From: Tessaracoccus flavescens
GTDB lineage: Bacteria; Actinomycetota; Actinomycetes; Propionibacteriales; Propionibacteriaceae
Direction: 5' to 3'
NCBI RefSeq assembly: GCF_001998865.1
Contig: NZ_CP019607.1
Span: 620,001 to 684,000, forward strand
DNA length: 64,000 bases
The notes under the pieces are model-generated. The model did no database searches. It was not told the DNA's origin and saw only the letters and a program-made list of their open reading frames with translations. The translations under genes and the position numbers were made by a program. Of this stretch, positions 6,088 through 41,026 are shown piece after piece (positions within the stretch are counted from its first letter, which is position 1; the number at the start of each line of letters is the position of its first letter).

Positions 6088-8140
6088 TCACCGCGCAGCG
6101 AAGGTGAGCGACCAGGCGGCCGCTCGGGGACGCCGCTGGTACTCGGGCCGCACGTCGGGCCCGCAGGAACGCGAGCCGAGTCCGTGCTGCTGAGCGTCCA
6201 GGTACAGGTGGGTGGCCGTCGAGCGGGGCAGCTCGTACGGGTGCGCCGCCGCCGTGACCTCGGCCACGTCGTGGGCCCGCAGCGCGAACCCCGGCAGCTT
6301 CCCCGCCCTCCTCGTCGCTGTGACCGCGAGGCCGGGGAGCAGCAGCTCCCCAAGCTCGGCCCGATGCCCGCTCTCCTGGGGGACTGGCGTAGTCGACGAC
6401 CAGGTCGTCCACGTCGGACTCGAAGCGTCCGACCCGGGCCGCCGCGCGGGAGTCGGCATAGTTCTCCTCCGGCCCTGTGCCGAACCATTCGACCCGCCCG
6501 AGGTCTGCCGGGAGCTCGAAGTGGAGTCCGATCCGCGGCCATGTCCCCTTCCACCCCATGGGTCGGGTCGGCTGTCGCCTCGAGGTGGAGCGCAACTGCG
6601 CGGAGCGTCCAGGTCAGCTCGACAAGGACGGCCTCGCGGGAGGCGGCCGGGGCGTAGCGGTGTCGCACGACGAGCCGGCCCGGCTCCGCGTTGACGGCGA
6701 GCACTCGCCGATGCAGCCGGTCAAGCCCGTGTGCGCGCCACTGCTCGGCCGACGACGGCGCCGGGGCACCCCTTCCACGGGTCGCGTCCGGCTCGGCGTC
6801 GACATAGGCGGGGAACGACCCGAGCGAGTCGTTCTCGGTGGGAGCGCGCCACAGCTCGAGGCGCGGGCCGCTGACCTGACGCCCGTCGAGCTCGGTCAGG
6901 TCGCCGGTGCGGGCGTCGAAGCGGGCGGTGCCGAAGACGATCGTCGCCCCGTCGAGTGCCGGAGCCTCGTCCGCGGTCGCCACCGACGGGCAGGTCGCAC
7001 CGTCGGCGAGGTGGACCTGCGTGCGGCTGACGACGTGGCCCTCTTCCGCCCAGGGGGTGGCGGCGACGGTGACGGCCTCGACGGTGCGCCACAGTTCGCC
7101 CTCGCGCGGCTCGAACCCGGGAAGCGAGACGGTGCAGCTCTCCCCTGGCTCCAGGTCGGGCACAGACAGGTCGCCGGTGCCGATCCGGCGGCCGTGGAGC
7201 TCGTCGTGCCAGGTGAAGCGCAGGTCGGAGGTGTCGCCGTCGTGCCGCCGGTTCTCGATCGTGACCTTCCCTGCGTCAGCGGTGAGCTTGATCGGGGTGG
7301 TGACGGCGGCGAACTCGGCGAGCATCGGCGTGGGGGTGCCGTCCGAGAGGACCATGCCGTCGCAGACGAAGGACCCGTCGTGGATCTCCTCGCCGAAGTC
7401 TCCACCGTAGGCGTAGAACTGCCTGCCGTCTTCGGTGGTCCTGCGCAGGCCGTGGTCGCGCCATTCCCACACGAAACCGCCGTGCCACTGGGGCAGGCTG
7501 TCGAAGCGGCGCTCGTAGTCGGCGAGCGTGCCCGCGCCGTTGCCCATCGCGTGCGCGTACTCACAGAGGATCATGGGGCGCTTCGCCAGCTCGGCGTTGC
7601 GGCCGGGCGAGGCCCACGTGTTGTCGCCGGTGCCCGCGGACATGTCCTCCATCTCCTCCACGGGCGCGTACATGCGCGAGACGATGTCGGTGTAGCGGCC
7701 CTCGAAGTCAGGCTCGAAGTGCACCGGTCGTTCGGGGTCGCGGCGGTGCACCCACGCGGCCATGGCGGCCGCGTTCTGGCCGGTCCAGGATTCGTTGCCG
7801 AGCGACCAGGCGATGATCGACGGGTGGTTCTTGTCGCGCTCGACCGTGCGCTCGATCCGATCGAGCAGCGCATCGCGCCAGCGCGGGTCGTCGGTGGGGT
7901 TCTCGACCCAGCCCGCGAACTCGAACCCATGGGTCTCCAGGTCGCACTCGTCGATCACCCAGAACCCGAGCTCGTCGGTCAGGTCGAAGAACAGCGGATG
8001 CGGTGGGTAGTGCGAGGTGCGGATGGCGTTGATGTTGTTGCGCTTCATCAGGTGCAGCTGCGCGCGCACCGACTCGACGTTGAACACGCGACCGTTGTCT
8101 GGGTCGTACTCGTGCCGGTTGACGCCGCGCAGCCGCAGCT
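6088..8140 (-). pseudogene. lacZ: Beta-galactosidase, C-terminal two thirds (broken)
   Basis: GH2 beta-galactosidase (LacZ type) from the catalytic barrel to the C-terminus. It resumes at KLRLRGVNRHEYDPD on the minus strand. It holds the acid/base glutamate in SLGNESWTG and the nucleophile glutamate in ILCEYAHAMGNG, and ends with the beta-sandwich. Two frameshifts break it: one at about 6560 (in a GGGG run before PRIGLHFELP) and one at about 6385 (before LGELLLPGLAVTAT). The true stop is at 6088. The N-terminal part lies at 12881-13594. The two halves are separated by about 4.7 kb of foreign DNA and some tens of codons of domain 2 are lost. Not functional as it stands. Confidence 0.9.
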
Positions 8141-9888
8141 TCCGCTATACCCATGATCCGGTCGGCCGGGTGCTGTCCGAACATCAGGACGGGGCCGAGC
8201 TGCTGCACAGCTATTCCGAACGCGGTATGCGGCTGACCAGCGTGCTGCCCGATGGCCGCTTCATCCGCTATGGCCATGACCGCAACAACGCGCTGGATGC
8301 CATTCATTACGGCGACCGGCAGATTCTGGACATCCGCCGCGACCGGCTTGGGCGCGAGCTGCACCGGCAGGCGGGCACCCTCGCGCGGCAGACCGATTAT
8401 GACCCGCAAGGCCGGATCCGGCGTCAGGCGGCTTATCGCACCACCACGCGCGAGCAGGTCTTCGCGCGCGGCTACAACTATGACAGCGTGTCGAACATCA
8501 CCTCGATCGAGGATGCCACCCGCGGCGAATTCGCCTTCCGCTATGACGAGCGTGACCGGCTGCGCAGCGCCGCCTCGGCCGATCACGAGGAGCGGTTCGC
8601 CTTCGATCCCGCCAGCACGGTGCTGGTCGGCGTGGACAATCCGCGCGATGCCTCGGTCGAACATGGCCTGCTGCGGATGCGCGGCGATTGCCATTACGAC
8701 TACGACGATGCCGGCAACCGCATCGCCATGCGGCGCGGGCAGGGCGGGGCGCATCAGTTCCGCTATGTCTATAATGACGACAACCGCCTGATCGAGGTCC
8801 ACGAGACCCGTGGCCGCACCCGCCGCCTGACCCGCTTCGCCTATGACGCGCTTGGCCGGCGCGTCAGCAAAGCCCACCGCGAGACGATCGAGGCCGCCAA
8901 CACCCCGACCGCCCCCGGCATCGACAGCAGCGCCGAGCTGGTCCGTGATGACACCATCTGGTTCCTGTGGGATGGTCCCGTCCTGCTGGCCGAAGGGCGC
9001 GGCAATCATGACGGCGCCATCGACCCGCTGGCCATTGTCTATGTCCACGAGCCGGGCAGCTTCCGCCCCGCCGCCCAGATCCGCCGCCATTCGGCCGAGG
9101 AGGAGGCGCGGGTGCTGATCTATTGGCTGGATCATCTGGGCACCCCGCAGGAGCTGTCGAACGACAACGGAGAGCTGGTCTGGCAGGTTGCGCTGAAGGC
9201 CTGGGGTCGCGTCGACCGGATGCTGATCGGGCGGGTCGAGCAGAACCTGCGCTTCCAGGGCCAGTATCACGACGCCGAAACCGGCCTGCATTACAACCGC
9301 TTCCGCCATTACGACCCAGCGGCGGGGATCTATCTGAACCAGGACCCGCTGGGCCTTCTGGGCGGCACCAATATTTACGCCTACCCGACTGACCCGCTGT
9401 CGGGCATCGACCCGTTTGGGTTGGTTGAGTTGGATTACAAGGGCGCGGGAGGCAACGGTTACACCGTCTATGGTTTGGGTGAGTTCGACAAGAGCGGTAA
9501 CCTGATCCGCACCGTCTATGTCGGACAGACCGAAACGGACCGCTATCATACCCGCATGCAAGAACATAAAGATTCCGGCAGATATTACCGTGGCCTGCGA
9601 CATTACGAGATCACCCGCGTCGATACCTACGCCGAGGCGCGCGGTGCCGAGCAATATCACATTGAAAACGTCAATGATGGCAAGGGAAGTCTCGACACGT
9701 CGCAACGCGGCGGCTGGTACGATGAAGCCAATGGCAAACGCTATGGTCCCGGTCTTGAAGCCAACCGTGTCAACTCGTACAATCAGGACCGGGTTCTGTC
9801 TGGCGATGATAAGCGTGCCAAAGCGTTCAACAAGGCCTACATACAGGAACGCGACCGGATGGCCACGACCACCAGTACGTGTAAGTGA
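8141..9888 (+). pseudogene. Rhs/YD-repeat protein C-terminal half with GIY-YIG-like toxin tip
   Basis: The frame begins abruptly inside an Rhs core (RFRYTHDPVGRVLS) at the lacZ junction, so the N-terminus is missing. It carries many YD repeats (YDPQGRIRRQ, YDDAGNRIAMR, YDALGRRVSK) and the usual end of the Rhs shell, HYDPAAGIYLNQDPLGLLGG then DPFGL at about 9420. The polymorphic tip after DPFGL (about 155 residues) contains GYTVYGL, TVYVGQT, HTRMQEHK and YAEARGAEQYHIE. These fit the GIY...YVG, basic and Glu motifs of GIY-YIG nucleases. In its original host this would be a contact-dependent or type VI toxin. Sequence style is alphaproteobacterial, unlike its neighbours. Confidence 0.8.
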
Positions 9889-9903
9889 TCGAGGGGTGAT
9901 CCC

Positions 9904-10419
9904 ATGCAAGACGGAAGACGAACCGCGCGCAATGGCTATGATTGGTTCGGACGCAAGTTCAAAGGAGTGGAGGCGGGTAGCGTCTTCGCTGTGCCGCTGC
10001 CGGATGGGACTTATGCCTTTGGGCGATTGATGAACGCCAAGGATGGTGCAACCATCGCCGAGTTTTTCCGCGCGCGTCGTAAGACGCCCGAGTTCGCACC
10101 AGAAATTCTGCAATCAGGGCGCTTGTTCGGGCCGGTCGGGGTTTTGATTGGCGAGATCGAAGGCCCTAACCGCAAACGGCCATGGAAGGTGATCCACAAG
10201 GATCCCGAATATTATCCGTCTGACCTTTATGATATTCCGTTCTTCCGCGGCACCGGGGCTGGGACTTGGCGGTATTTCACGCTCAACGATGATCGTGAGA
10301 TCCTCGGACCGGTTGCCGACAAGGATGTCGGCAGTTGGAAAGTCGCATCGGTGCTGCCGCAATATGCGGACGAGATCACGGACATGATCGTCTGGAACAT
10401 GGAGCAGCAAGGCCTCTAG
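9904..10419 (+). CDS. Putative immunity protein, Imm26-like
   Basis: A 171-residue soluble protein directly after the Rhs toxin tip (15-base gap), the standard place for the cognate immunity gene. Residues 22-40 read GSVFAVPLPDGTYAFGRLM, resembling the opening strand pair of the Imm26 family. Family assignment is from memory of that motif and is moderate. It is the only complete gene of the foreign block. Its codon use and lower GC than neighbouring genes support transfer together with the Rhs fragment. Without an intact Rhs delivery protein it could at most protect against a kin toxin. Confidence 0.65.
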   Translation: MQDGRRTARNGYDWFGRKFKGVEAGSVFAVPLPDGTYAFGRLMNAKDGATIAEFFRARRKTPEFAPEILQSGRLFGPVGVLIGEIEGPNRKRPWKVIHKDPEYYPSDLYDIPFFRGTGAGTWRYFTLNDDREILGPVADKDVGSWKVASVLPQYADEITDMIVWNMEQQGL

Positions 10420-10489
10420 CCTCACCGAAACACTGTTGGGGGGCAACTCCGATTGGCAGCACGGCATCTGCCTTCCGACCCCCTTTTGC

Positions 10490-10881
10490 GGCTCTTCACA
10501 GAAGTGAGTGGATGAGGGGTCTGAATCCGCCGGCGTCGAGTAGGCAGCGGGCGATGTAGTTGACGATGTTGCGGAACCCTCTTGCGGTGCCGCGGAGGTG
10601 TTCCAGGAGGCCGTTGATGGCCTCGGTGGGACCGTTCGAGGTGCCGGGGTGGTCGAAGAACGCGAGGATGTCATCTCGGCGTCGCTGGAGGGTCTGGCCC
10701 AGCGACCTGAGTTCGTCGAGGCCGACGGGGACACCGGTCTTGAGCTGGTCGATGACCCGGGTCATGATCGTCTTCCCCTCGGCCGGCTGGTCGGCTTGGT
10801 AGGCGTCGATCACTGTCTGGTAGACGATCCAGGTGATCTGAAACGCGACATGCCGATCATCGGTGAGAACTTTGGCTTGGC
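10490..10881 (-). pseudogene. ISL3-family transposase, C-terminal remnant with one IS end
   Basis: The minus strand encodes the last 125 or so residues of an ISL3 transposase: DDRHVAFQITWIVYQTVIDAY, then the DDE glutamate region NGPTEAINGLLEHLRGTARGF. Left of it at 10490 is GGCTCTTCACA, the ISL3-type terminal repeat also used by the neighbouring element. The copy is cut at 10882 by a second ISL3 element, and its other half is not found beyond that element. So a simple nested insertion was followed by deletion or recombination. Confidence 0.8.
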
Positions 10882-31387: not shown

Positions 31388-31439
31388 TCCATCCCTCCCG
31401 GCCGGTCCACGCCGACCACCATCGACGAAAGGGCCCCCG

Positions 31440-31672
31440 GTGCGAAGCCGTCGTGGTGCTTGAGGGTCAGGATGCCCATCTTGAAGCCCTGGTCGCGCAG
31501 GGTCTTCACCCAGGCGTCGACGTCGACCTCACCGGTCGGATCGAAGCGGTGAAGGCCCGCGTCTGGGCGCCCTGGTTGGCCTCGTTGCCGAAGGCCACCG
31601 AGCCGCGCGCGCCCTGGCGGCTGAGCAGGTTGCCGGTGACCTCCGCCTCCTTGTACCCGTCGAGCCACAGGG
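31440..31672 (-). pseudogene. LamG end and GH29 alpha-L-fucosidase-like fragment (3' part of split gene)
   Basis: Continuation of the secreted protein gene whose first part lies at 39687-40890. It reads LWLDGYKEAEVTGNLLSRQG (last strands of the LamG-like fold), then after a one-base shift at about 31550 VDVDAWVKTLRDQGFKMGIL and TLKHHDGF, which is the conserved opening of the GH29 fucosidase barrel. The match ends at about 31440. The rest of the catalytic domain is deleted, and the glnS stop follows within 55 bases. The gene was therefore broken independently of the transposon. Confidence 0.7.
31665..31672. repeat. 8-bp target site duplication, left copy
   Basis: CCACAGGG here is repeated at 39687-39694 on the other side of the transposon. 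Removing the element and one copy restores a reading frame through AQVTLWLDGY on the minus strand. Confidence 0.85.
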
Positions 31673-31749
31673 TGTGACTGGCAGCGATACATGGCGGGCT
31701 TCTGGTGACGCTGAGTGGCACCCAGCTCGGGGCCGGCATCGCTGGGGCT

Positions 31750-31926
31750 AGCGGACCTCTGCTCCTCAGAAGATCGATCTCGAGCTCCCTAGCCGTGGGG
31801 TACTCCTGCCGTCCGGCGCCTCGCAGTTACACGCGGTCTTCGAGGGAGGCCAAACGCCCAGCCTCAGGGGCGGAACTTCGCCCCCATGTCCCGCGGGCAA
31901 GAGCCCGACCCAGCGCAGACCGGTGA
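31750..31926 (+). pseudogene. Possible transposase (TniA-like) C-terminal remnant
   Basis: A basic, Arg/Ala-rich tail (SREAKRPASGAELRPHVPRA) ends in a TGA at 31924-31926 that overlaps the GTG of the ATPase gene (GTGA). Such an overlap is usual between the transposase and ATPase genes of Tn552/Tn5053-type elements. The catalytic part is missing because the left transposon end is only 77 bases away. Assignment rests on position and composition. Confidence 0.4.
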
Positions 31927-32663
31927 GCCGGCACTACCAGTCGCTTCATGATGCGGCGGTTCTCGCGACCGAGGATCTGCTCGATGTCCGCGACCTGATC
32001 GGCGAAATCTGCGGTGCGGTCGCGATGGGCGCCATCTATGGACCGTCGGGGACCGGCAAGTCGTTCGCCGTCGACGAGGCCGTCGCCGACCGCGCCGAAC
32101 ATGACCACGTGCGCACCGACTTCCGCGCCCGGCCGACGATGCGTTACGTCCGGCAGGAGCTGGGGCGGCTGCTCGGTGTGGCTGCGACGTCCAGCGCGTT
32201 CGATGCCGACTGGGCGTTGAAGCGGGCCCTGTCGGAACGATTCCGGTTGGTGATCATCGACGAGGCCCAATGGCTGAACCGGGAGTGTTTCGAGTATCTG
32301 CGGCACCTGCACGACGACCCCGACACCACCTTCGCCCTGCTGTTCGTCGGCGGCGACGGCTGCTACGAGGTGCTGCGCCGCGAGCCCATGCTGGACTCCC
32401 GCTTGTATGCCCATCACAGGTTCGCGCCGTTGACACCAGCCACGGTGGTGAAAGCGATCCCGACGTACCACCCGATCTACGCCGACGCCGACCCTGCCGT
32501 GCTGCGGTTGGTCGACGACACGTGCGGGCACGGCAACTTCCGCTCCTGGGCCAGGTTCACCTGCCACGCGACACGACTCTGCCAGCGGACCGGCCGGACC
32601 GTCTGCGACGAGGAGATCGCCCGCAACGCCTTCCGAACCCTCGGCGGCGGTCGTGGCCGCTAA
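31923..32663 (+). CDS. TniB/TnsC-like AAA ATPase of the transposon
   Basis: 246 residues with Walker A GAIYGPSGTGKSFAVDE (about residue 38), Walker B RLVIIDEAQWLN (about 115), sensor-1-like TTFALLFVGG and a C-terminal helical region. This is the ATP-dependent target-selection and regulator protein of transposons that use an rve-type transposase. It starts with GTG overlapping the transposase tail and overlaps the next gene by 11 bases. It is apparently intact although its transposase partner is destroyed. Confidence 0.85.
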   Translation: MSRHYQSLHDAAVLATEDLLDVRDLIGEICGAVAMGAIYGPSGTGKSFAVDEAVADRAEHDHVRTDFRARPTMRYVRQELGRLLGVAATSSAFDADWALKRALSERFRLVIIDEAQWLNRECFEYLRHLHDDPDTTFALLFVGGDGCYEVLRREPMLDSRLYAHHRFAPLTPATVVKAIPTYHPIYADADPAVLRLVDDTCGHGNFRSWARFTCHATRLCQRTGRTVCDEEIARNAFRTLGGGRGR

Positions 32664-33192
32664 CCAGGCCACGCGGCTGGCCCCTCGGGTGACGGTGTGT
32701 GTCGATCTGGACGACGACGTCGCCGTCATCCGCGGCATCCACCGCGCCTGCGTTCTCGACCGCGGGCATCTCGTTCTCACCGCGGCCCCAGCCAGCAGCG
32801 CTGATGACCTGGTCCGCGCGATGCTCATCACCTTGAACGTGTTGTGGCGGCTGCCCGCCAGGCTGCGACCCGGCGGAGTCTCCCTCAACGATGTCGGCCG
32901 AGACATCGCCGAGTGGGAGATCTCTTGGGCGCTGAGCCGAGTCGGCATCACCAGCTTGTGGGTCATCGACGCCGACCGGGCGAAACTGTTCGCCTGGCTC
33001 TGGCTCCGCCACACCGCTGAGCGCGAAGACCTGCGCCTGGTCCTGCACACCACGACCGTCCCCGATCACTGGCAAGCCGCCGCGCTGACCGGATGCCGCG
33101 TGCGGACCATCAGCCCCGAGCAGCTGCTAAACCCGCGGAACCTGTCCCTGACTCGCCGGCACGCAGGTACTGATAGACGGTCTCGCGGCTGA
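32653..33192 (+). CDS. Transposon-encoded protein of unknown function
   Basis: 179 residues, GTG start, co-translated with the ATPase. It looks like a single mixed alpha/beta domain (VTVCVDLDDDVAVIRGIHRA; ITSLWVIDADRAKLFAWLWL) with a basic tail. The position matches that of TniQ or accessory genes in related elements, but I see no TniQ motif. Its last 83 bases overlap the 3' end of the convergent recombinase gene. Confidence 0.6.
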   Translation: MAANQATRLAPRVTVCVDLDDDVAVIRGIHRACVLDRGHLVLTAAPASSADDLVRAMLITLNVLWRLPARLRPGGVSLNDVGRDIAEWEISWALSRVGITSLWVIDADRAKLFAWLWLRHTAEREDLRLVLHTTTVPDHWQAAALTGCRVRTISPEQLLNPRNLSLTRRHAGTDRRSRG

Positions 33193-33709
33193 TCCCGAAC
33201 TCACGCGCCAGCTCAGCTTTCGCCCGACCCGCGGCGGCACCGGACCGCAGCCGGTCGACCTGCTCGGGAGTCAAGGACCTGCGCCGCCCCCGGTAGGCGC
33301 CGCGCTTCTTCGCCAGGGCGATGCCTTCCCGCTGACGCTCACGAATCAAAGCCCGCTCGAACTCGGCGAACGCGCCCATCACCGACAACAACAAGGTGGC
33401 CATCGCGGTGTCCTCGCCGGTGAAGAGGAGCCGCTCCTTCACGAATTGCACCCGGACCCCGCGGGCGGTCAGTCCGCGGACGGTGCCGCGGAGGTCGTCG
33501 AGATTGCGCGCCAGCCGATCCATCGAATGCACCACGACGGTGTCGCCGTCACGGACGAACCGCAGCATGTCCTCGAACTCCGGCCGGTGCAGGTCCTTGC
33601 CCGAGACATGGTCGGCGAACACCCGGTCCACCTCGACACCGTCGAGCTGCCGGCTGGTGTTCTGCTCCAGCGTGCTCACCCGGGTGTAGCCGACCCGCTG
33701 ACCCGTCAC
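33110..33709 (-). CDS. Serine recombinase (resolvase) of the transposon
   Basis: 199 residues, GTG start. Catalytic serine in VGYTRVSTLEQNTSRQL (Ser at about residue 10). Other resolvase motifs are VVVHSMDRLARNLDDLRG, LLLSVMGAFAEFERALIRER and a C-terminal helix-turn-helix (KAELAREFGISRETVYQYL). It would resolve cointegrates formed during transposition. A second, distinct resolvase sits at the other end of the element. Confidence 0.93.
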   Translation of the reverse strand: MTGQRVGYTRVSTLEQNTSRQLDGVEVDRVFADHVSGKDLHRPEFEDMLRFVRDGDTVVVHSMDRLARNLDDLRGTVRGLTARGVRVQFVKERLLFTGEDTAMATLLLSVMGAFAEFERALIRERQREGIALAKKRGAYRGRRRSLTPEQVDRLRSGAAAGRAKAELAREFGISRETVYQYLRAGESGTGSAGLAAARG

Positions 33710-33869
33710 ACGCCGCCTCGCTCTAACCAAAGTGTCAGGTTGAAATCTAAGACCAGCTGCGGCGAGTGTCAATCAAACACGCAAGAGACCCTAACCTGAC
33801 GCTGGCCCGCCGAGTCGTCCTGACGTCAGCTTGGGGTGTACCTCAACCGGACATGGCGCCCTAATCAAC

Positions 33870-34260
33870 CGATCCCGATGCTCTTCCGCTCGCGGCATCC
33901 AGTGAGACCGGAGACGTTCCTGCTGGAGCGTCTCGCAGGACCCGACGGCTCACGGGAGTTTGGAACGTTCGGACAGAGGGACGATCATGCAGACGCACGA
34001 CAGCGACGTCGGCGGGGACGATCCGGCCGGCTGCGGCCAGGGTGGCGAGTGCCCCGAGTGCGATTCGATCCGAGCCGCACAGGATCGCCTCGATGTCGGG
34101 ATGGCGCTCCAAGAGGTCACGGGTAGCCGCCGCGCCACTGACGGAATCCCAGCCTGAGAAGACGACCCGGCTGTCGGGGATTTGGGCACCAAGGATTTGA
34201 CGGTAGCCGCGAAGTCGGTCGGTGGTGGCGGGGGTCGACTTAGCAGGTGAGCGAATCCGG
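33870..34260 (-). pseudogene. LacI-family transcriptional regulator remnant
   Basis: The frame RLRGYRQILGAQIPDSRVVF, AAATRDLLERHPDIEAILCG and SDRIALGALATLAAAGRIVP matches the ligand-binding domain of LacI/GalR regulators. The N-terminal DNA-binding domain is absent and the end (VVRLHDRPSVRTF in place of VVGFDD) is frame-disturbed. It lies next to the sugar transporter genes and was probably their original regulator. The flanks of this pseudogene (33710-33869 and 34261-34425) show nothing else. Confidence 0.7.
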
Positions 34261-34425
34261 TTGTTTGGTGATTGCAGGGGTCGCGCGTACGCGGCTGCCA
34301 CTCTGCCCGTCCGAACCATGGCAGAGGTCTGTCCAGTGAGTTCGGACGTTGCGTGGTGGACCGCAAGGGTTTTGCGGGAGGCACCTTGGCCCGACGCGCT
34401 GGTCGGCAGCTACAGAACTGCTTGC

Positions 34426-35340
34426 CTATTTGACGGCGCCTTCGGTGAGTCCGCCTCGCCAGAACCGTTGCAGCACGATCATGGCGATCGCCAGCGGGAT
34501 CACCGACAGCAGCACGCCGGCGATGGTCAGCTGGTAAAATTCGGGCAGGCGGTTGGTCTGGCTGAGCCAGTTGTTCAGGCCGAGGGTGATCGGGTACAGC
34601 TTCGTGTCCGAGAGCATCACCAGCGGCAGGAAGTAGTTGTTCCAGATGCCGACGAGCTGGAACAAGAAGACCGTGACCAGCGCGGGGGTGAGCACGCTGA
34701 GCCCGACCGAGTGGAAGATCCGCAACTCGCCCGCACCGTCGATCCGGGCCGCTTCGAGCAGGGCGTCGTCGACAGTCGCCTCCGCATAGATCCGGCACAA
34801 GAAGAGCCCGAACGGTGACACCAGCGAGGGCAGCAGGACAGACAGATAAGTGTTGGTGATGCCCAGTTGGCTGAACTGCAGGAACAGCGGCAGGGCGATC
34901 GCTGTGCCGGGCACGAGCACGCCGCCGAGGACGGCGCCGAAGACGGCCTCGCGACCCCGGAACTTGTACTTGGCGAGCGCGTACCCGCCGGCCGCGGCGA
35001 AGTAGGTGGCCAGGGCCGCCCCCACACCGGCGTAGAACACGGAGTTGAGGAACCACCGCACGTAGATGCCGCCGTCGTAGGTGAGCACCTGCTGGATGTT
35101 GCTGAACAGGGCGAAGTCGGAGGCGAACCAGAAGCCGTTCGTGGAGAACAGGTCCTGGGTCGTCTTGGTCGAGGCGACGATGACCCAGTACACCGGCATC
35201 AAGAAGTACACCGCGACGACGATCAAGATGCCGGTCACCAATATGGTGGACCCGCGGGTGGCGGTGGCCCCGTGGACCGTGCGGTGCGAGGGCCGCGTCT
35301 TGCCCGGGGCGGCGGTGGACGCCTTTGCGGTGGTGGTCAC
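34426..35340 (-). CDS. Carbohydrate ABC transporter permease (MalG type)
   Basis: 304 residues, six predicted membrane helices starting at STILVTGILIVVAVYFLMPVYW. The coupling EAA motif is EAARIDGAGELRIFHSVGLS. GTG at 35340 is preceded by AGGAGG and overlaps the stop of the upstream permease gene (GTGA). It pairs with the gene at 35337-36287 to form the membrane channel. No ATPase gene is present in the element, so a shared chromosomal MsiK-like ATPase is likely needed (inference from actinobacterial sugar systems). Confidence 0.93.
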   Translation of the reverse strand: MTTTAKASTAAPGKTRPSHRTVHGATATRGSTILVTGILIVVAVYFLMPVYWVIVASTKTTQDLFSTNGFWFASDFALFSNIQQVLTYDGGIYVRWFLNSVFYAGVGAALATYFAAAGGYALAKYKFRGREAVFGAVLGGVLVPGTAIALPLFLQFSQLGITNTYLSVLLPSLVSPFGLFLCRIYAEATVDDALLEAARIDGAGELRIFHSVGLSVLTPALVTVFLFQLVGIWNNYFLPLVMLSDTKLYPITLGLNNWLSQTNRLPEFYQLTIAGVLLSVIPLAIAMIVLQRFWRGGLTEGAVK

Positions 35341-36287
35341 TTCGACCTCCTGTTGGTCAGGCGAAGGAAGGCGAACGAGAGGATGAATGCGACGAGCGCG
35401 ATGAGCACCGCCTGGGCGGCGGCGACGTTGTAGTCGTTGTAGGCGAACGCGGTGGTGTAGGCGCTCAGGTTGGGCGTGTACTCGGAGTTGATCGCCGGCG
35501 AGACGCTCTGCAGCACCTGGGGCTCGGCGAACAGCTGCAGCGTCCCGATGATCGAGAACACGGTGGTCAGGATCACCGCCGGTCGGATCAGTGGCAGCTG
35601 GATGCTGCGCGCCACCCGCCAGGAGCTGGCGCCGTCGACCTTGGCCGCCTCGTAGACCTCGTTGGGGATCGTCTTCAGCTGGGCGACGATGATCAACATG
35701 TTGTAGCCGGTATAGCTCCAGGTCACGATGTTGGCGATCGACCAGAGCACGGTGTTCGGGCCCAGGAAGTCCAGCTCGATCCCGAACTGCGCGGCGATGT
35801 CGATCAACGGGCTCAGCCCCGGGACGTACAGGAACGACCACAGGATCGTGGCGATCACACCGGGAATCCCGTACGGCATGAAGTAGGACGCCCGGAAGAA
35901 GGCGGGCCAGCGGGCGGAAGCGCCTTCCAGCAGCAGGGCCAGGATGATGCAGAGCACCATCATGACCGGGACCTGGACGATACCGAAGAGCAGCATCCGG
36001 CCGATCGAGGCGATGAAGTTCTGATTGGACAGCGCCTGGGCGTAGTTGGCGAATCCGGCGAACTCGGTGGTCACGCCCTGCTCGCCGAACACGCCTTGGC
36101 GCGTTACCTTGGTGAAGCTCTGGGCGACGGCGGTCAGGATGGGGATCGCGAACGTCAGGATGAACAGCAGCAGGAACGGCGCCAGGAGCGCCCAGGGCGC
36201 CCAGGCCTTGCTGTTCCTGCGGTGTCGGCCCGGGCTCGGGACGAGGAGGGCGGCGGGCTTCTCGGCGCGCCGGGTCGTGGTGGTCAC
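35337..36287 (-). CDS. Carbohydrate ABC transporter permease (MalF type)
   Basis: 316 residues with six predicted helices (APWALLAPFLLLFILTFAIP at the N-terminus) and the EAA motif EAAKVDGASSWRVARSIQLP. It starts with GTG at 36287, sharing its first base with the TAG stop of the solute-binding protein gene, with AGGAG upstream. Gene order SBP-MalF-MalG is the classic CUT1 arrangement. Substrate is not evident. Insertion next to a fucosidase-like gene is due to the target site and not operon logic. Confidence 0.93.
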   Translation of the reverse strand: MTTTTRRAEKPAALLVPSPGRHRRNSKAWAPWALLAPFLLLFILTFAIPILTAVAQSFTKVTRQGVFGEQGVTTEFAGFANYAQALSNQNFIASIGRMLLFGIVQVPVMMVLCIILALLLEGASARWPAFFRASYFMPYGIPGVIATILWSFLYVPGLSPLIDIAAQFGIELDFLGPNTVLWSIANIVTWSYTGYNMLIIVAQLKTIPNEVYEAAKVDGASSWRVARSIQLPLIRPAVILTTVFSIIGTLQLFAEPQVLQSVSPAINSEYTPNLSAYTTAFAYNDYNVAAAQAVLIALVAFILSFAFLRLTNRRSK

Positions 36288-37618
36288 TAAGACGTCTCCT
36301 TCCGGATGGTCAGCCCCTTGTTGCGGAACGCGTCGATGATGTTGGCCTCGGACGCGCTGATGGCGTCGACGAGCGTGCCGCCCGACGCCTTCTTGCGGAA
36401 CTGGTCCGCAATGATGTTGAACGACTGCTGGGTGATCGGCCACCACGTCCAGTCGGGGTTCTGCTCCTTGGTGGCGGGAAGGAAGATCTCCTCGTTGTAG
36501 CTCTGGCCGCCGAAGAACTCCGAGGGCTGCTGCCGCTGCGCCCCGATGTAGTCCGGCAGCGGCGACCAGCCGATGCCGCAGTACTTGATCAGGGCGTCGA
36601 TGCCTTCCTTGCTGGTCTGCATCCAGATCGCGAAGTCGAGCGCCTCCTTCGGATGCTGGCTGTTGGCCAGGATGGCGGCGGTGGAACCACCGATGTAGCT
36701 GGAGCCGAAGCCGCTCGAACCCCACCGCGGCATGCTCGCGACCCGCCACTTGCCCTCGGCTCCGCTGACCCCCTCGAGCAGTGCGTCGCCCCAGCTTGCG
36801 CTGGTCAGCGAAGCGATCTGGTCGGCCGCCGCGGCCGCGAACCATGGCGTGGAGTACTGACCGAACGCCGTCGTCACCAGGTCGTCGTCGATGGCCTTGT
36901 CGAAGAAGCGGGCCGTTTTCATGGTGGCGTCGTCGGTCATGTTGATCACCCAGCCGTCGCCGTCCACCTTCAGCCAGCTCGCGCCGGCCTGGGTCGCGAT
37001 CGCGGTGAACCAGGATGGGTCGGCGAGCGGGAAGCAGTCGATGTAGACCTGGTTCTTGCGCAGCTCGCCCGCGACGTCGGCCCACTCGTCCCAGGTCTTG
37101 GGCGCCTCGGCGCCGACCCGCTGCAGCAGGTCGGGCCGGAAGTAGGTGGCCATCGGGCCCGAGTCCTGCGGAATCCCGTACACGCCGTCGACGAAGCTGA
37201 CCTGGCTCCACAACGTCTTGTCGAAGCGGTCCGCGTAGTCGTGGGCGCCGTAGCGGGCCAGGTCGACCAATCCGTTGACCAGGATGAACTCGGGGATGGT
37301 CCGGAACTCGATCTGTGCCAGGTCCGGTCCGGTGCCGGCCGCGAGCGCCGAGTACATCTTCGGATATCCGCCGCTGTTGCCGCTGGGGATCCAGATCGCC
37401 TCGACCTGGACCTGCGGGTTGTTGGCGTTCCAGATGTCACAGACCTTCTGCAGGTCCTTCAACCAGGCCCAGTAGGTGAGCTTCACAGGTCCGGTGGCCG
37501 GCGGGATGGCGGGTTCGGCGTTGACCGACGCGGTGCCCGGCGTGGAACATCCGGCCAGCAACGCAGCGCCCGCGGTCAATCCCAACCCGAGTAAACCTCG
37601 GCGCGACAAGGGAGACAT
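36287..37618 (-). CDS. Extracellular solute-binding lipoprotein, family 1
   Basis: 443 residues. The signal sequence has an arginine pair (SRRGLLGLGLTAGAALLAGC) ending in a lipobox LAGC, so it is a membrane-anchored lipoprotein, possibly Tat-exported. The body has the family-1 features YSALAAGTGPDLAQIEF, WDEWADVAGELRK and STAAILANSQHPKEALDF. It delivers an unidentified sugar to the two permeases. ATG at 37618 has GGAGG 5 bases upstream. Confidence 0.93.
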   Translation of the reverse strand: MSPLSRRGLLGLGLTAGAALLAGCSTPGTASVNAEPAIPPATGPVKLTYWAWLKDLQKVCDIWNANNPQVQVEAIWIPSGNSGGYPKMYSALAAGTGPDLAQIEFRTIPEFILVNGLVDLARYGAHDYADRFDKTLWSQVSFVDGVYGIPQDSGPMATYFRPDLLQRVGAEAPKTWDEWADVAGELRKNQVYIDCFPLADPSWFTAIATQAGASWLKVDGDGWVINMTDDATMKTARFFDKAIDDDLVTTAFGQYSTPWFAAAAADQIASLTSASWGDALLEGVSGAEGKWRVASMPRWGSSGFGSSYIGGSTAAILANSQHPKEALDFAIWMQTSKEGIDALIKYCGIGWSPLPDYIGAQRQQPSEFFGGQSYNEEIFLPATKEQNPDWTWWPITQQSFNIIADQFRKKASGGTLVDAISASEANIIDAFRNKGLTIRKETS

Positions 37619-37701
37619 AGCACCTCCAACGACGGTGTGGATGCGGCTGCGCCGACGCTCCCAACCGGGCGAAGTCGGCGATGGTGCGGTAACCTTAGCA
37701 G

Positions 37702-37726
37702 GAAACCAAGCAGGTGACCTAGTTTC
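37702..37726. promoter_or_regulatory. Candidate operator between the transporter operon and tetR
   Basis: The divergent 132-bp promoter region contains GAAAC and GTTTC as outer arms around AGGTGACCT. A TetR-type dimer encoded next to it could bind here and control both directions. This is a symmetry argument only. Confidence 0.35.
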
Positions 37727-37750
37727 ATTTCGGACGAGTTTGGAGGATCG

Positions 37751-38377
37751 ATGGCGAAGGCGTATTCGCGACGTCGAGGGCCCTGCGCCAAAACGGCCGA
37801 GCGGCGCCAACGGATCCTCGACGCCGCTCTCCAGGTCTTCGCGGCCCACGGCTACCGCGCCGGGTCGATGCGTGAGGTGGCCCGAGTCGCCGACATGAGC
37901 CTGTCCAACCTGATGCACCACTTCAAGACCAAGGACGACCTGCTGCTGGCTCTCCTCGAACGGCGTGACGCTGACAGTCCCGGGCAGCGGACCGGCACCA
38001 ACGACCTCGTCGCCGACATACTGGCCCAAGCACGCTGGAACCAGACCATGCCCGAGCTGATCGCCCTGTACTCGGTGCTGTCAGCGGAGTCCCTGACCGA
38101 CGGCCATCCCGGACGCGATTACTTCATCGAACGGTTCACCACCGTCCGGCGCGGCTTCGAAGAAGAGTTCGCAAAGCTACACGACGCCGGACGGCTGCGA
38201 CCCGGAGTGGACCCGCACATGGTCGCCGGTTCCATCACCGCATTGTGGGACGGGATCCAGTTGCAGTGGCTACTGCAGCCCGACCAGATCGACGTCGTCG
38301 CATACCTGCAGGCCTTCCTTGACCTCGTTACCCAGCCCGCCGACTCCGCTCTCGTTCGGGTCATCCCAGAGAACTAA
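37751..38377 (+). CDS. TetR-family transcriptional regulator
   Basis: 208 residues. N-terminal helix-turn-helix: RRQRILDAALQVFAAHGYRA then SMREVARVADMSLSNLMHHF and KTKDDLLLALLERRD, typical of TetR. The C-terminal ligand domain is family-variable (ELIALYSVLSAESLTD is usual for regulators next to carbohydrate genes). GGAGG precedes the ATG. Divergent orientation to the solute-binding protein operon suggests it represses that operon. Confidence 0.92.
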   Translation: MAKAYSRRRGPCAKTAERRQRILDAALQVFAAHGYRAGSMREVARVADMSLSNLMHHFKTKDDLLLALLERRDADSPGQRTGTNDLVADILAQARWNQTMPELIALYSVLSAESLTDGHPGRDYFIERFTTVRRGFEEEFAKLHDAGRLRPGVDPHMVAGSITALWDGIQLQWLLQPDQIDVVAYLQAFLDLVTQPADSALVRVIPEN

Positions 38378-38389
38378 CGGCCTGAACCG

Positions 38390-38579
38390 ATGGTCGATCG
38401 CATGGTCGCCGCTGTCGAGCTCGACAAAGAAGCCATGGTCGACGGCGCGGCCATCCCTCGGGTGGTGGGACGGGCGTCTGAAGGTGCCGATGCCGTCCTG
38501 TGGGCTGTGCAGCATCAGCTCCTCCTACGTCACCGGCGTGGCACTTCCCGTCGATGGCGGGCTCGCCGCCGGCCTCTAA
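38390..38579 (+). pseudogene. Short-chain dehydrogenase C-terminal remnant
   Basis: The end SSYVTGVALPVDGGLAAGL is the conserved C-terminus of SDR oxidoreductases (YVTGxxxxVDGG). Upstream, in another frame, AAIPRVVGRASEGADAVLW resembles the usual IPLGRWGxPEEVADAV. Frame is broken and the N-terminal Rossmann part is absent. Probably once co-transcribed behind tetR. Confidence 0.65.
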
Positions 38580-38589
38580 GCCTAAGTCC

Positions 38590-38960
38590 CACTTTGATCG
38601 CGAAGCCGCGTCCGACCCCAGACTGGGACTTGCGGGTCAACCGATCCTCAGACTCGGCCACCTCCAGCCACCGCCACAGCGTCCTCACCGATACCCCAGC
38701 TCGGCCGCCGCCGCCTCGACGCGCCATGTCGGCAACGTCTGCGCGCGGCGCACCGCCAGCAGCGCGGACACCACGCTCGCGCGAGCCTCGCCCGGCACGC
38801 AGCTCGTCTTCACCTTCTCTGAATTTGGCACCCGCCCGCTCCCGTCCCGAGCGCGCAGCGGCCGAGGGACGGCGCGATCACCACACGCCCACAACGACCG
38901 GCCTATACCCGCACTGTCAACTTCGCCAGCCGTGCCAGTGACAACTTCGCAGGGGTTCAC
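38590..38960 (-). pseudogene. Transposase (TniA/Mu-type) N-terminal remnant
   Basis: Minus-strand pieces in two frames read ARASVVSALLAVRRAQTLPT, WRVEAAAAELG and VSVRTLWRWLEVAESEDRLT. Together they form the N-terminal helix-turn-helix found in rve transposases of Tn552-like elements. The catalytic DDE part is missing. It points away from the right end and is opposite in direction to the C-terminal remnant at 31750-31926. Confidence 0.5.
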
Positions 38961-39052
38961 ACCTCGACGACTCTTTACGAGGGATTGCCATGTACGGAAG
39001 ACCCGTACGGTGATATGGGCGGTGAGGGGAGGGCAACTGGAACAATGGGCAC

Positions 39053-39625
39053 ATGCATGTCGGCTACGCGCGCGTCTCGACTCTCGAGCAAGACCTCTCC
39101 GCCCAACGGGAAGCGCTCGAGCGCCTCGGAGTCGAGAGCAAGAACATCTACTTCGACCACGGCCTGACCGGAACTACCCGCGCCCGGCCCGGGCTGCGCG
39201 AAGCGCTGGCCGCGACCCGGGAGGGCGACACCCTGGTGGTGACCAAGCTCGACCGGCTAGCCCGCTCCCTCCCGGACGCGAGGGACATCGCCGACGAGCT
39301 CACCATCAAGGGAGTCGCGCTCAGCCTCGGCGGCAGCGTCTACGACCCCAACGACCCCGTGGGCCGCCTGCTCTTCAACGCGCTCGGCATGGTGGCCGAG
39401 TTCGAGGCGGACCTCATCCGCCTGCGCACCCGCGAGGGCATGGCCATCGCCAGATCCAAGGGCAAGCTCAAGGGCAAGAAGCCCAAGCTCTCGCCCTCTC
39501 AGCGCAAGCACCTCATGACCTTGCATACGGCTGGCGAGCACACCCAGGCAGAGCTCGCCGAGCTGTTCAACGTCTCCCGCACCACCATCTACCGCGAGCT
39601 GCGCCGCACCACGACCACCTCCTGA
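39053..39625 (+). CDS. Serine recombinase (resolvase), second copy type
   Basis: 190 residues. Catalytic serine in HVGYARVSTLEQDLSAQ (Ser at about residue 9), LVVTKLDRLARSLPDARD, NALGMVAEFEADLIRLRTRE and a C-terminal helix-turn-helix (QAELAELFNVSRTTIYREL). It ends 15-60 bases before the repeated CGCCACTGAGC sequences that form the right transposon end. It differs clearly from the recombinase at 33110-33709 and is not a duplicate. Confidence 0.93.
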   Translation: MHVGYARVSTLEQDLSAQREALERLGVESKNIYFDHGLTGTTRARPGLREALAATREGDTLVVTKLDRLARSLPDARDIADELTIKGVALSLGGSVYDPNDPVGRLLFNALGMVAEFEADLIRLRTREGMAIARSKGKLKGKKPKLSPSQRKHLMTLHTAGEHTQAELAELFNVSRTTIYRELRRTTTTS

Positions 39626-39686
39626 CCGCCCATGCCCCCGCCACTGAGCGATCACAGAAGCCCGCCACTGAGCCATCAAATCCACA

Positions 39687-39694
39687 CCACAGGG
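39687..39694. repeat. 8-bp target site duplication, right copy
   Basis: CCACAGGG, identical to 31665-31672, immediately outside the right end of the 8.0-kb transposon. Confidence 0.85.
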
Positions 39695-40890
39695 TCACCT
39701 GTGCGCCACCGTCGCCGTTAGGCACGTAGGCCACGGACACGACGTGCTTCTCCCCCGCCTTCACCGTGCCGGTGCCGGCACGGAAGTCGCGCCAGGTGCC
39801 GCCGGAGTCAGCGGAGTAGCCGTCCTGCAGCGAGCCGTTGTTGAACCGGACGAAGAAGTTGCCGCCCACGCCGATCAGGGTGGCGAGCTCGCGCTGGCTG
39901 CCGGTGGGGTTGAACTCCGCCTCCGCGACGAAGCCTGCCTCGATGTCCTCGTTCGGCATCGGGTTGGTGGCCGGGGTGAAGACCAGCGACTGGGTGGCGC
40001 CGCCGAAGGTAAGCGCCGAGTTGGCGAGCGAGACGCCGTTGTTCAGCGTGACGGTTCCGGCGGCGACCTCGGCGGCCGCGGGGGCGTAGACGCCTCCGGT
40101 GGCCGTGCCGTCGAAGCCGAGCAGGAGCTGATCGACCGCGGCGGGGCTCGGCTGGAGCTCGTAGCCGTCGCCTGCGCCGTCGGTCCCGTTGACCCGGACC
40201 TGGTGCAGCATGCCGACCATGCCGCGGTCGTCGCCCTGGGCGTTGACGTCGTTGCCGAGGCCGAACGCCTTGTTCAGACCGGCGGCCACCGTCGCGGGTG
40301 GGTTCCCGTGACGGCGGGCTGAGCCTCACCATCGACGCTCACGTCCATCACGACCCCGGCGAAGGTGGCGCGGTAGTGCATGGAGAGGGCGTACTTCTCG
40401 TTCAGCGCCGGAAGCGTCGCCTCCTTGTAGTTCTTCACCCAGGCGCCGGTCGCGTTGGTCGAGTAGCCGTAGCGAAGCTTGCCGTCCTGGGCGCGGACGA
40501 AGACGTTTCCTCCGGCGAGAGGTAGGTGGTGAGGGTCGGGTTCGCGGTGGGCGTGAACACCGTCTCCATGACGAAGCTCTGCGACCCGGTCCCGAGGTGG
40601 AGAGCGGCCGCGTCGAAGCGGAGCCCCTGGGTTCCGCCCCCGAGCTTCACCCCCTCGGGAACCTGCTCCTCGGCGCCGCTGATCCGGTGCAACGAGCCCC
40701 GCTGGGCCTCGTCCCCCTGAGTCGTGTACTGGGTGGTGCCCTCGAGCGAGCCCCCGAACGACACGTCCAGCGCATCGGTGGGGCTCGCCTGGGCGGTGAG
40801 GCCGGCTGTTACGCCGGCGGACAGCGCCACGGCCAGCAGGCCGATCATGGCGGCGCGTAACGTGGAGGGACGGTTGGTCAGTTGTCGCAT
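39687..40890 (-). pseudogene. Secreted LamG-domain protein, 5' part of split gene
   Basis: ATG at 40890 opens a Sec signal peptide (TLRAAMIGLLAVALSAGVTA, cleavage near LTAQA). Two concanavalin A-like (LamG) domains follow: QSFVMETVFTPTANPTLTTY with RAQDGKLRYGYSTNATGAWV, and GGVYAPAAAEVAAGTVTLNN with FFVRFNNGSLQDGYSADSGG. Frameshifts occur at about 40515 and 40310. The gene is cut at 39687 inside AQVTLW by the transposon. Its continuation lies at 31440-31672 and adds the beginning of a GH29 fucosidase domain. Confidence 0.8.
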
Positions 40891-41026
40891 GGAACTGCCA
40901 TCGGGATCAGCATTGATCGAGACGACAGTCATCCTATGTCAGCGTTAACATTCTATCCGCGCGACAGAACAGGCGCGCACAGAGCGTGAGCGCTTACGCG
41001 GCCGGCCGAAGAATCAGGGCATGCGG

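Follow-up and report, generated by a model that had tools for sequence, protein, structure and literature searches.

Does the 8-kb insert that interrupts a LamG gene of Tessaracoccus flavescens, and that carries a sugar-uptake operon between well-formed transposon ends, represent one transposon of an unusual kind or several elements of known kinds lying within each other? The insert occupies positions 31673-39686 (~8 kb) of the window, i.e., the full 64,000-nt stretch that was analysed (contig NZ_CP019607.1, positions 620,001 to 684,000), and a preliminary description had taken it for one transposon with an unusual gene set. Our analysis argues for another reading, to which we assign a probability of roughly 0.85: a Tn552-like outer transposon lies in a LamG-fucosidase gene, has been reduced to its ends and a resolvase, and holds a broken second transposon with a sugar operon as cargo, inverted and partly deleted. 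The ATPase, one of the resolvases and, as we infer, the sugar operon belong to this second transposon, and neither of the two has a working transposase here. Relatives are cited below by our genome (G) and locus (L) numbers.

The insert is confirmed as a real transposon in the LamG gene: its ends are true and a duplication of 8 bp flanks it. Its borders and the host gene are as follows:

31665..31672, no strand: left copy of the target-site duplication, 8 bp, CCACAGGG
31673..31704, + strand: outer left tip, TGTG-N15-TGGCGGGCTTCTG; G008, a genome of the genus, has the identical tip at C1:1542694
39655..39686, - strand: outer right tip, ending in CACA; the identical tip is present in G028
39687..39694, no strand: right copy of the target-site duplication, 8 bp, CCACAGGG
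39695..40932, - strand: host gene, LamG part of a LamG-fucosidase pseudogene; the other piece lies left of the element at ~31430-31664

The TGTG and CACA tips, the inverted 13-mer 19 bases inside the ends and the 8-bp duplication, all of them listed in the preliminary description, were found again at the same positions: the 13-mer TGGCGGGCTTCTG spans 31692-31704, its reverse complement ends 19 bases inside the right tip, and 8 bp is the single length at which the duplication matches. The two tips were the sole matches to the TGTG-N15-13-mer pattern in the window (up to three mismatches allowed in the 13-mer), and 20 simulated windows (first-order Markov) averaged 0.1 tips each, with 0 pairs that had an 8-bp duplication. 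The restoration of the LamG frame on removal of the element was likewise reproduced, as the flanks joined in silico are open through the junction, and the empty site was found in the relatives G011 and G028 of the genus, which keep the order glnS / fucosidase-LamG / EF-Tu / EF-G with an uninterrupted LamG. The G011 LamG aligns across the junction without gaps over 237 residues, and 6 of the 38 other genomes of the genus gave a LamG match spanning it. The host gene itself is decayed, its fucosidase part being shortened and out of frame with ~2 kb missing relative to G011; it was or became a pseudogene anyway, and the loss of ~2 kb from the fucosidase is separate from the insert. The neighbouring glnS encodes a protein with 85% identity to its counterpart in Tessaracoccus sp. 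G1721 and 84% to the one in T. bendigoensis, in keeping with a Tessaracoccus-like host, and an 18.3-kb metagenome contig (P0117) carries a glnS that is 99% identical.

Three features belong to the outer element:

31673..31894, + strand: left fragment, 222 bp; 99.1% identity to L047/L075 (G008), the match beginning exactly at 31673 (TGTG)
38962..39686, + strand: right fragment, 725 bp; stops at the CACA tip in relatives
39053..39625, + strand: serine resolvase 2; Resolvase PF00239; protein 100% identical to L071 and 97% to L072

Over the right 725 bp, identity is 99.4% with G028 and with a plasmid of Cutibacterium modestum, and 93% with G011 and with a plasmid of Microbacterium; the match to the Microbacterium plasmid runs one base past the CACA tip, and the others stop at it. 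This right boundary recurs in five loci (L071, L072, L076, L081 and L086) and the left boundary in G008, where the left 222 bp are seen as a remnant. Many relatives with such ends and duplications encode a resolvase, a transposase (TnpA, PF00665 and PF09299) and an AAA ATPase, while others hold just cadD genes and a resolvase, and the pattern search and tip comparison showed TGT...ACA ends with subterminal repeats to be common to this copy and its autonomous relatives. When 198 genomes of the family were searched for the tips with up to two mismatches, at least 115 had one or more matches; many of these are chance, given that a reversed control pattern also scored often, and several related tip pairs 2-13 kb apart stood out among the matches listed. 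No pair of a p480-like transposase and a p271-like ATPase was found among the open reading frames (ORFs) of the outer element in the Pfam search, and outer TnpA had no match in the window's genome at the sensitivity used; the same query does match 18 of the 198 family genomes (E up to 1e-30) and, at E up to 1e-80, 4 of 393 genomes sampled from the class.

The outer-type TnpA of the relatives shows 38% identity to Tn552 p480 over 460 aa, as compared to 29% over 349 aa to Tn402 TniA and 30% to the inner transposase. A tree built quickly from 46 rows placed the actinobacterial TnpA and Tn552 together (SH-aLRT 95), with the actinobacterial branch as its own clade beside Tn552 (support 81) and the inner TnpA apart; TniA and IstA form long branches, Tn402 TniA being a long-branch neighbour, and the deeper order is unsure. 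The outer ends match those of a widespread actinobacterial Tn552-like group, and this copy has lost the group's transposase and ATPase. Tn552-like transposons form a branch of the Tn7 superfamily that lacks TnsA and TniQ, and an excerpt of PMC8865565 lists Tn552 as the tnsCBR subfamily of the Tn7 family. The hallmarks of Tn7 and of CRISPR-associated transposons (CAST), TnsA and TniQ/TnsD, gave no family match among the ten proteins searched.

With staphylococcal Tn552 (p480, p271 and the bin resolvase), the relatives share the order resolvase-transposase-ATPase, the TGT...ACA tips, short direct repeats of varying length and frequent insertion upstream of recombinase genes, and their TnpA proteins are 37-42% identical to the staphylococcal matches. 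Unlike Tn552, the window copy is without transposase and ATPase, has diverged ends, is chimeric, carries no blaZ and lies in LamG instead of near a host recombinase gene. Elements of the Tn5053/Tn402 type (tniABQR, the res-site hunters) share a Mu-C/rve transposase, an ATPase, a serine resolvase and the targeting of res sites, and defective nested copies of them are known from the available part of PMC7765201; however, they make 5-bp repeats, as compared to 8 bp here, and carry tniQ (R751), whereas TniQ had no match among the ten window ORFs searched. The closest likeness at the right end is with 1,934-bp cadD mini-elements (Cutibacterium modestum and Microbacterium plasmids, G011), in which the right 725 bp with resolvase 2 are 93-99% identical and the right tip is of the same kind, but the left end is another one and the cargo consists of cadmium genes. 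Among L071, L072, L081, L114 and L119, one left end (TGTGGCTTCGTTCGC...) pairs with two different right ends, and because of this pairing ends appear to have been exchanged between elements.

The interior of the insert has other relatives. Treating the ends as those of one element was abandoned: the left 253 bp gave one weak plasmid match, and two elements were first recognised because the right-end and ATPase searches led to different relatives. The inner transposon comprises:

31915..33858, + strand: core (last tnpA bases, ATPase, ORF, resolvase, presumed res); 95.8% DNA identity to L014 1922-3863
31923..32663, + strand: AAA ATPase of TnsC/TniB type, 246 aa; AAA_22; phrog_296 DNA transposition protein; 98% to L014
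32653..33192, + strand: small ORF, family unassigned; 95.5% to L014
33110..33772, - strand: serine resolvase 1; Resolvase PF00239
33773..33858, - strand: presumed res region of resolvase 1, bordering the cargo at its outer edge
38629..38961, - strand: element end with 5' tnpA fragment; tip TGTGAACC at 38961; 85% to L014 541-209; frame-broken and inverted relative to the core

The inner element is likened to L014, a contig of a metagenome-assembled genome (Actinomycetota PROP3), in which an intact 546-aa Mu-C/rve transposase frame precedes the core homologous to 31915-33858; more distant loci come from Streptomyces, Pseudonocardia and Dormibacterota. Relative to L014, the window copy has lost the transposase and one end, and a genome search found the inner transposase in the window's genome solely as the 38629-38961 fragment. 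The inner stretch terminates in the tip TGTGAACCCCTGCGAAGTTGTCAC, which resembles the tips of L014 and L017. At the point where the window has this tip (38961/38962), the DNA of L071, L072, L076, L081 and L086 is continuous, in L076 for 30 bp before it diverges, and the tip lies 92 bp upstream of the resolvase 2 reading frame. The stretches 31915-33858 (+) and 38629-38961 (-) have opposite orientations relative to L014, and an inversion is fixed by this.

Both serine recombinases named in the preliminary description are present (PF00239); however, they belong to two elements, not to one. Its TniB-like ATPase is an AAA ATPase (AAA_22, 61.3 bits), whereas the label TniB-like rests on position and distant homology, the Pfam TniB score of 13.1 bits lying below the cut-off of 22.4. 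Relatives of this ATPase reach up to 88% and are mostly metagenomic. The small inner ORF reached the cut-off of no Pfam family and matched nothing in NCBIfam or PHROGs; its assignment as TniQ was rejected, as no domain was found, nor was one found in the third genes of three inner-type relatives. Assignment to IS481 or IS21 was rejected as well: IS481 is the top NCBIfam model for both transposases, yet its scores (127.1 and 72.4 bits) fall short of the cut-off of 224, and both gene content and TnsB as best PDB match speak against it.

Resolvase 1 and its upstream DNA (33110-33858) are 71-73% identical to recombinase loci in the eight plasmid rows listed, one of them annotated tnpR of the Tn3 family; this similarity extends to ~33852 and that to L014 to 33858. 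Because at least 5,000 plasmid records matched the resolvase 1 query somewhere, resolvase 1 may be a common module that the inner element borrowed. The ends of the L014 contig (1-210 and 5953-6162) are near-identical inverted sequences (198 of 210 bases), for which a longer terminal repeat, a flanking repeat or an assembly effect are candidates. In G028 (L076 ~8071-10762), a pair recognised by eye as istA/istB-like lies just upstream of resolvase 2; its frame begins 158 bp from the inner-tip position, and the sequence diverges ~30 bp from that position. A de novo scan of 26 loci for inner-type duplications gave one convincing case, L017, with 7-bp TCCACGG repeats; it found none for L014 and no convincing pair in the S. 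casei relative L124, and it missed the Tn402 ends in R751.

Between the two inner stretches lies the cargo:

33859..38628, no strand: cargo region; 34422-38353 is 83% identical to G143 C1:157364-161331
33861..34319, - strand: LacI-family regulator, C-terminal fragment; Peripla_BP_3; no helix-turn-helix match in family searches
34426..35340, - strand: CUT1 permease of GlcU/UgpE/MalG type; BPD_transp_1; best NCBIfam matches all below cut-off
35337..36290, - strand: CUT1 permease of UgpA/GlcT/MalF type; BPD_transp_1; best NCBIfam matches all below cut-off
36287..37618, - strand: sugar-binding lipoprotein; SBP_bac_1
37751..38377, + strand: TetR-family regulator; TetR_N
38319..38579, + strand: C-terminal scrap that we take to resemble an SDR dehydrogenase, by eye from a motif in the translation

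The whole CUT1 operon with TetR regulator of the preliminary description was thus found in part: the binding protein, two permeases and TetR are there, but no sugar-transport ATPase or hydrolase gene is among the ten ORFs searched. These four genes (34422-38353) are collinear with a locus in the family member G143, where no outer-type or inner-type tips occur within the 19 kb examined; transposase-like frames, recognised by eye, lie on both sides of the G143 operon (L139 6328-7218 and 17037-18973). Because the operon of G154 adjoins a GH2 beta-galactosidase gene, galactosides are a plausible substrate. The cargo sits beyond resolvase 1, a position that holds two genes with weak nucleotidyltransferase matches (below the Pfam cut-off) in L014; since L014 has other genes there, the CUT1 operon is read as cargo of the inner element, presumably captured from a chromosome, although it may instead be owned by the outer one. 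The cargo of the relatives is mixed, with cadmium or mercury genes in L071, L072, L074, L078-L081 and L144, fluoride exporters and sugar- or lipid-type enzymes in L146, sulfur-type genes in L147 and little in L151; the ars genes of L071 lie outside its element. The preliminary description noted that transposons of the Tn552/Tn5053 type usually carry resistance genes; besides the mixture seen here, an excerpt of PMC8649781 places sugar catabolism and transport genes near the carbon-metabolism cargo of Tn7-like transposons.

Following this, we propose that an outer Tn552-like transposon with a resolvase, a TnsB-type DDE transposase and a TnsC-type ATPase would have entered the LamG-fucosidase gene, producing the 8-bp duplication. 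A second transposon, which belongs to the same broad superfamily and brought an ATPase, a small ORF, a Tn3-type resolvase and cargo of its own, would have inserted in the presumed res just upstream of the resolvase 2 gene, in the manner of res-site hunters; this site is proposed because five relatives are continuous where the window has the inner tip. The ancestral order would have been outer left end, cargo, resolvase 1, ORF, ATPase, transposase, inner tip, resolvase 2 and outer right end. The present order would result if the block reaching from the transposase tail to the cargo end was inverted and ~1.4 kb of the transposase gene lost, and inversion and deletion would also have removed the second inner end and any DNA that separated the outer left end from the insert. 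Transposition may have been replicative (cointegrate resolved by the resolvase at res), to judge from the lack of TnsA and the presence of a resolvase (PMC8649781, in part).

Several observations weigh against this history. Relatives of the ends, to which the preliminary description had pointed as a check, exist with resolvase, TnpA and AAA ATPase, but no locus examined carries both outer ends of this copy together, and the left one is otherwise known solely from the G008 remnant; TnpA may also have sat on a plasmid lost before sequencing. The inner ATPase is without a match in the 38 other genomes of the genus, and the word nested rests on a single tip because the second end of the inner element was not found. 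Moreover, 20 bp at 31895-31914 are left without explanation, as is an 11-bp direct repeat, TCAACCGATCC, that brackets the cargo at 33865-33875 and 38637-38647.

The same data have to be set against other explanations. If a single non-autonomous transposon had evolved to carry sugar uptake and been mobilised as an 8-kb unit by a transposase in trans, the intactness of both ends and of the duplication with no transposase inside would be accounted for; mobility is seen in non-autonomous 1,934-bp cadD elements whose right end is of the same kind, with duplications of 7 bp (L071), 9 bp (L072) and 7 bp (L081), and tni-defective Tn5053 elements are presumed to use tni functions in trans according to an excerpt of PMC7765201. 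This explanation is unlikely, however, as the interior is the wreck of another transposon with broken genes, and no second copy of the 8-kb unit was seen among the tip matches listed for the 198 family genomes or among the best two cargo candidates per genome in 197 genomes. It is rather doubtful, too, that the two serine resolvases produced the internal inversion and deletion through res sites, as described for Bin in Tn552: the cargo border at 33858 does coincide with the outer edge of the presumed res of resolvase 1, and Bin can invert or delete the segments that arise when Tn552 inserts near res sites (PMC3276174, in part), but no res-like sequence was recognised by eye at the breakpoints 38628 (inside tnpA) and 31894-31914.

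The suggestion of the preliminary description that the 8-bp duplication and the metabolic cargo define a new actinobacterial transposon family bears on the duplications of the whole group. Twenty elements with duplications, including Tn552 and the window copy, had 6 bp (two), 7 bp (seven), 8 bp (three) or 9 bp (eight); further tips had been set aside by eye because their motif was weak, they lay at a contig edge or they lacked a partner, and L107, L125 and L151 came from de novo scans, in which pairs that have a duplication are favoured. No duplication flanked four clear inward-facing tip pairs (L078, L086, L110 and L148). As a control, 1,290 of 1,301 cross-locus tip pairs (L071-L123) shared fewer than 4 bp, and the others 4 bp (five), 5 bp (two), 6 bp (two) or 8 bp (two), with none at 7 or 9 bp. 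Within the actinobacterial branch the duplications are 7-9 bp, once 6, and tend to be longer than the 6 bp (TAAGAG) of the one Tn552 copy measured, that of S. equorum. Two copies of a 6,702-bp element that are 99.94% identical (L079 and L080) have duplications of 9 and 7 bp. Since the range of the group is 6-9 bp, the 8 bp found here are not exceptional. That Tn552- and Tn5053-type elements give shorter duplications, as had been assumed, fails for Tn552, for which the excerpt of PMC3276174 states 6-bp repeats and describes 10-bp repeats around copies in res sites, and holds for Tn5053/Tn402-type elements with their 5 bp (PMC7765201, in part).

A new family so defined is therefore very improbable. 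In its favour stand the separate clade beside Tn552, the tendency to longer duplications and the non-metal cargo of L146 and L147, but duplication length varies both in the group and in one element, metal genes (cadD, mer) recur as cargo of the relatives, and the gene order is that of Tn552. What stands of the suggestion is that the group is little described in the literature searched. No paper devoted to this actinobacterial branch was found, judged from titles and the openings of abstracts, with subscription journals mostly outside the coverage; excerpts mention an uncharacterised clade dominated by Actinobacteria (PMC8649781) and name the Tn552 transposase among Clavibacter protein families (PMC5358740).

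As for target choice, which was tallied for plasmid-borne relatives with duplications, 6 of 10 sit 15-169 bp upstream of an annotated recombinase gene (L125, L144, L145, L147, L151 and L153), while L146, L071 and both elements in L072 do not. The position of the inner tip fits this habit of inserting near recombinase genes; the outer element, in a LamG gene, does not fit insertion in or near res sites.

Taken together, we regard the 8-kb element as a chimeric, nested relic of known kinds of transposon that is probably immobile, instructive rather than a new kind of element. It offers a clear chromosomal worked case of a transposon within a transposon beside a resolvase gene, with layers that can be separated, and the sugar cargo itself adds little, such cargo being already known for Tn7-like elements. 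What remains of most interest is that duplication length varies in Tn552-like elements. Tentatively, and at slightly less than even odds, Tn552-like transposases may have an inherently flexible strand-transfer spacing (6-9 bp, with peaks at 7 and 9) unlike the fixed 5 bp of Tn7/Tn5053, so that one transposase would give varied lengths depending on the target, and the ends of different elements may freely recombine into working chimeric pairs, which would let non-autonomous elements gain cargo. Duplications of 6-9 bp over 20 elements, varying even for one element, provide a handle on how TnsB-type transposases set their stagger.

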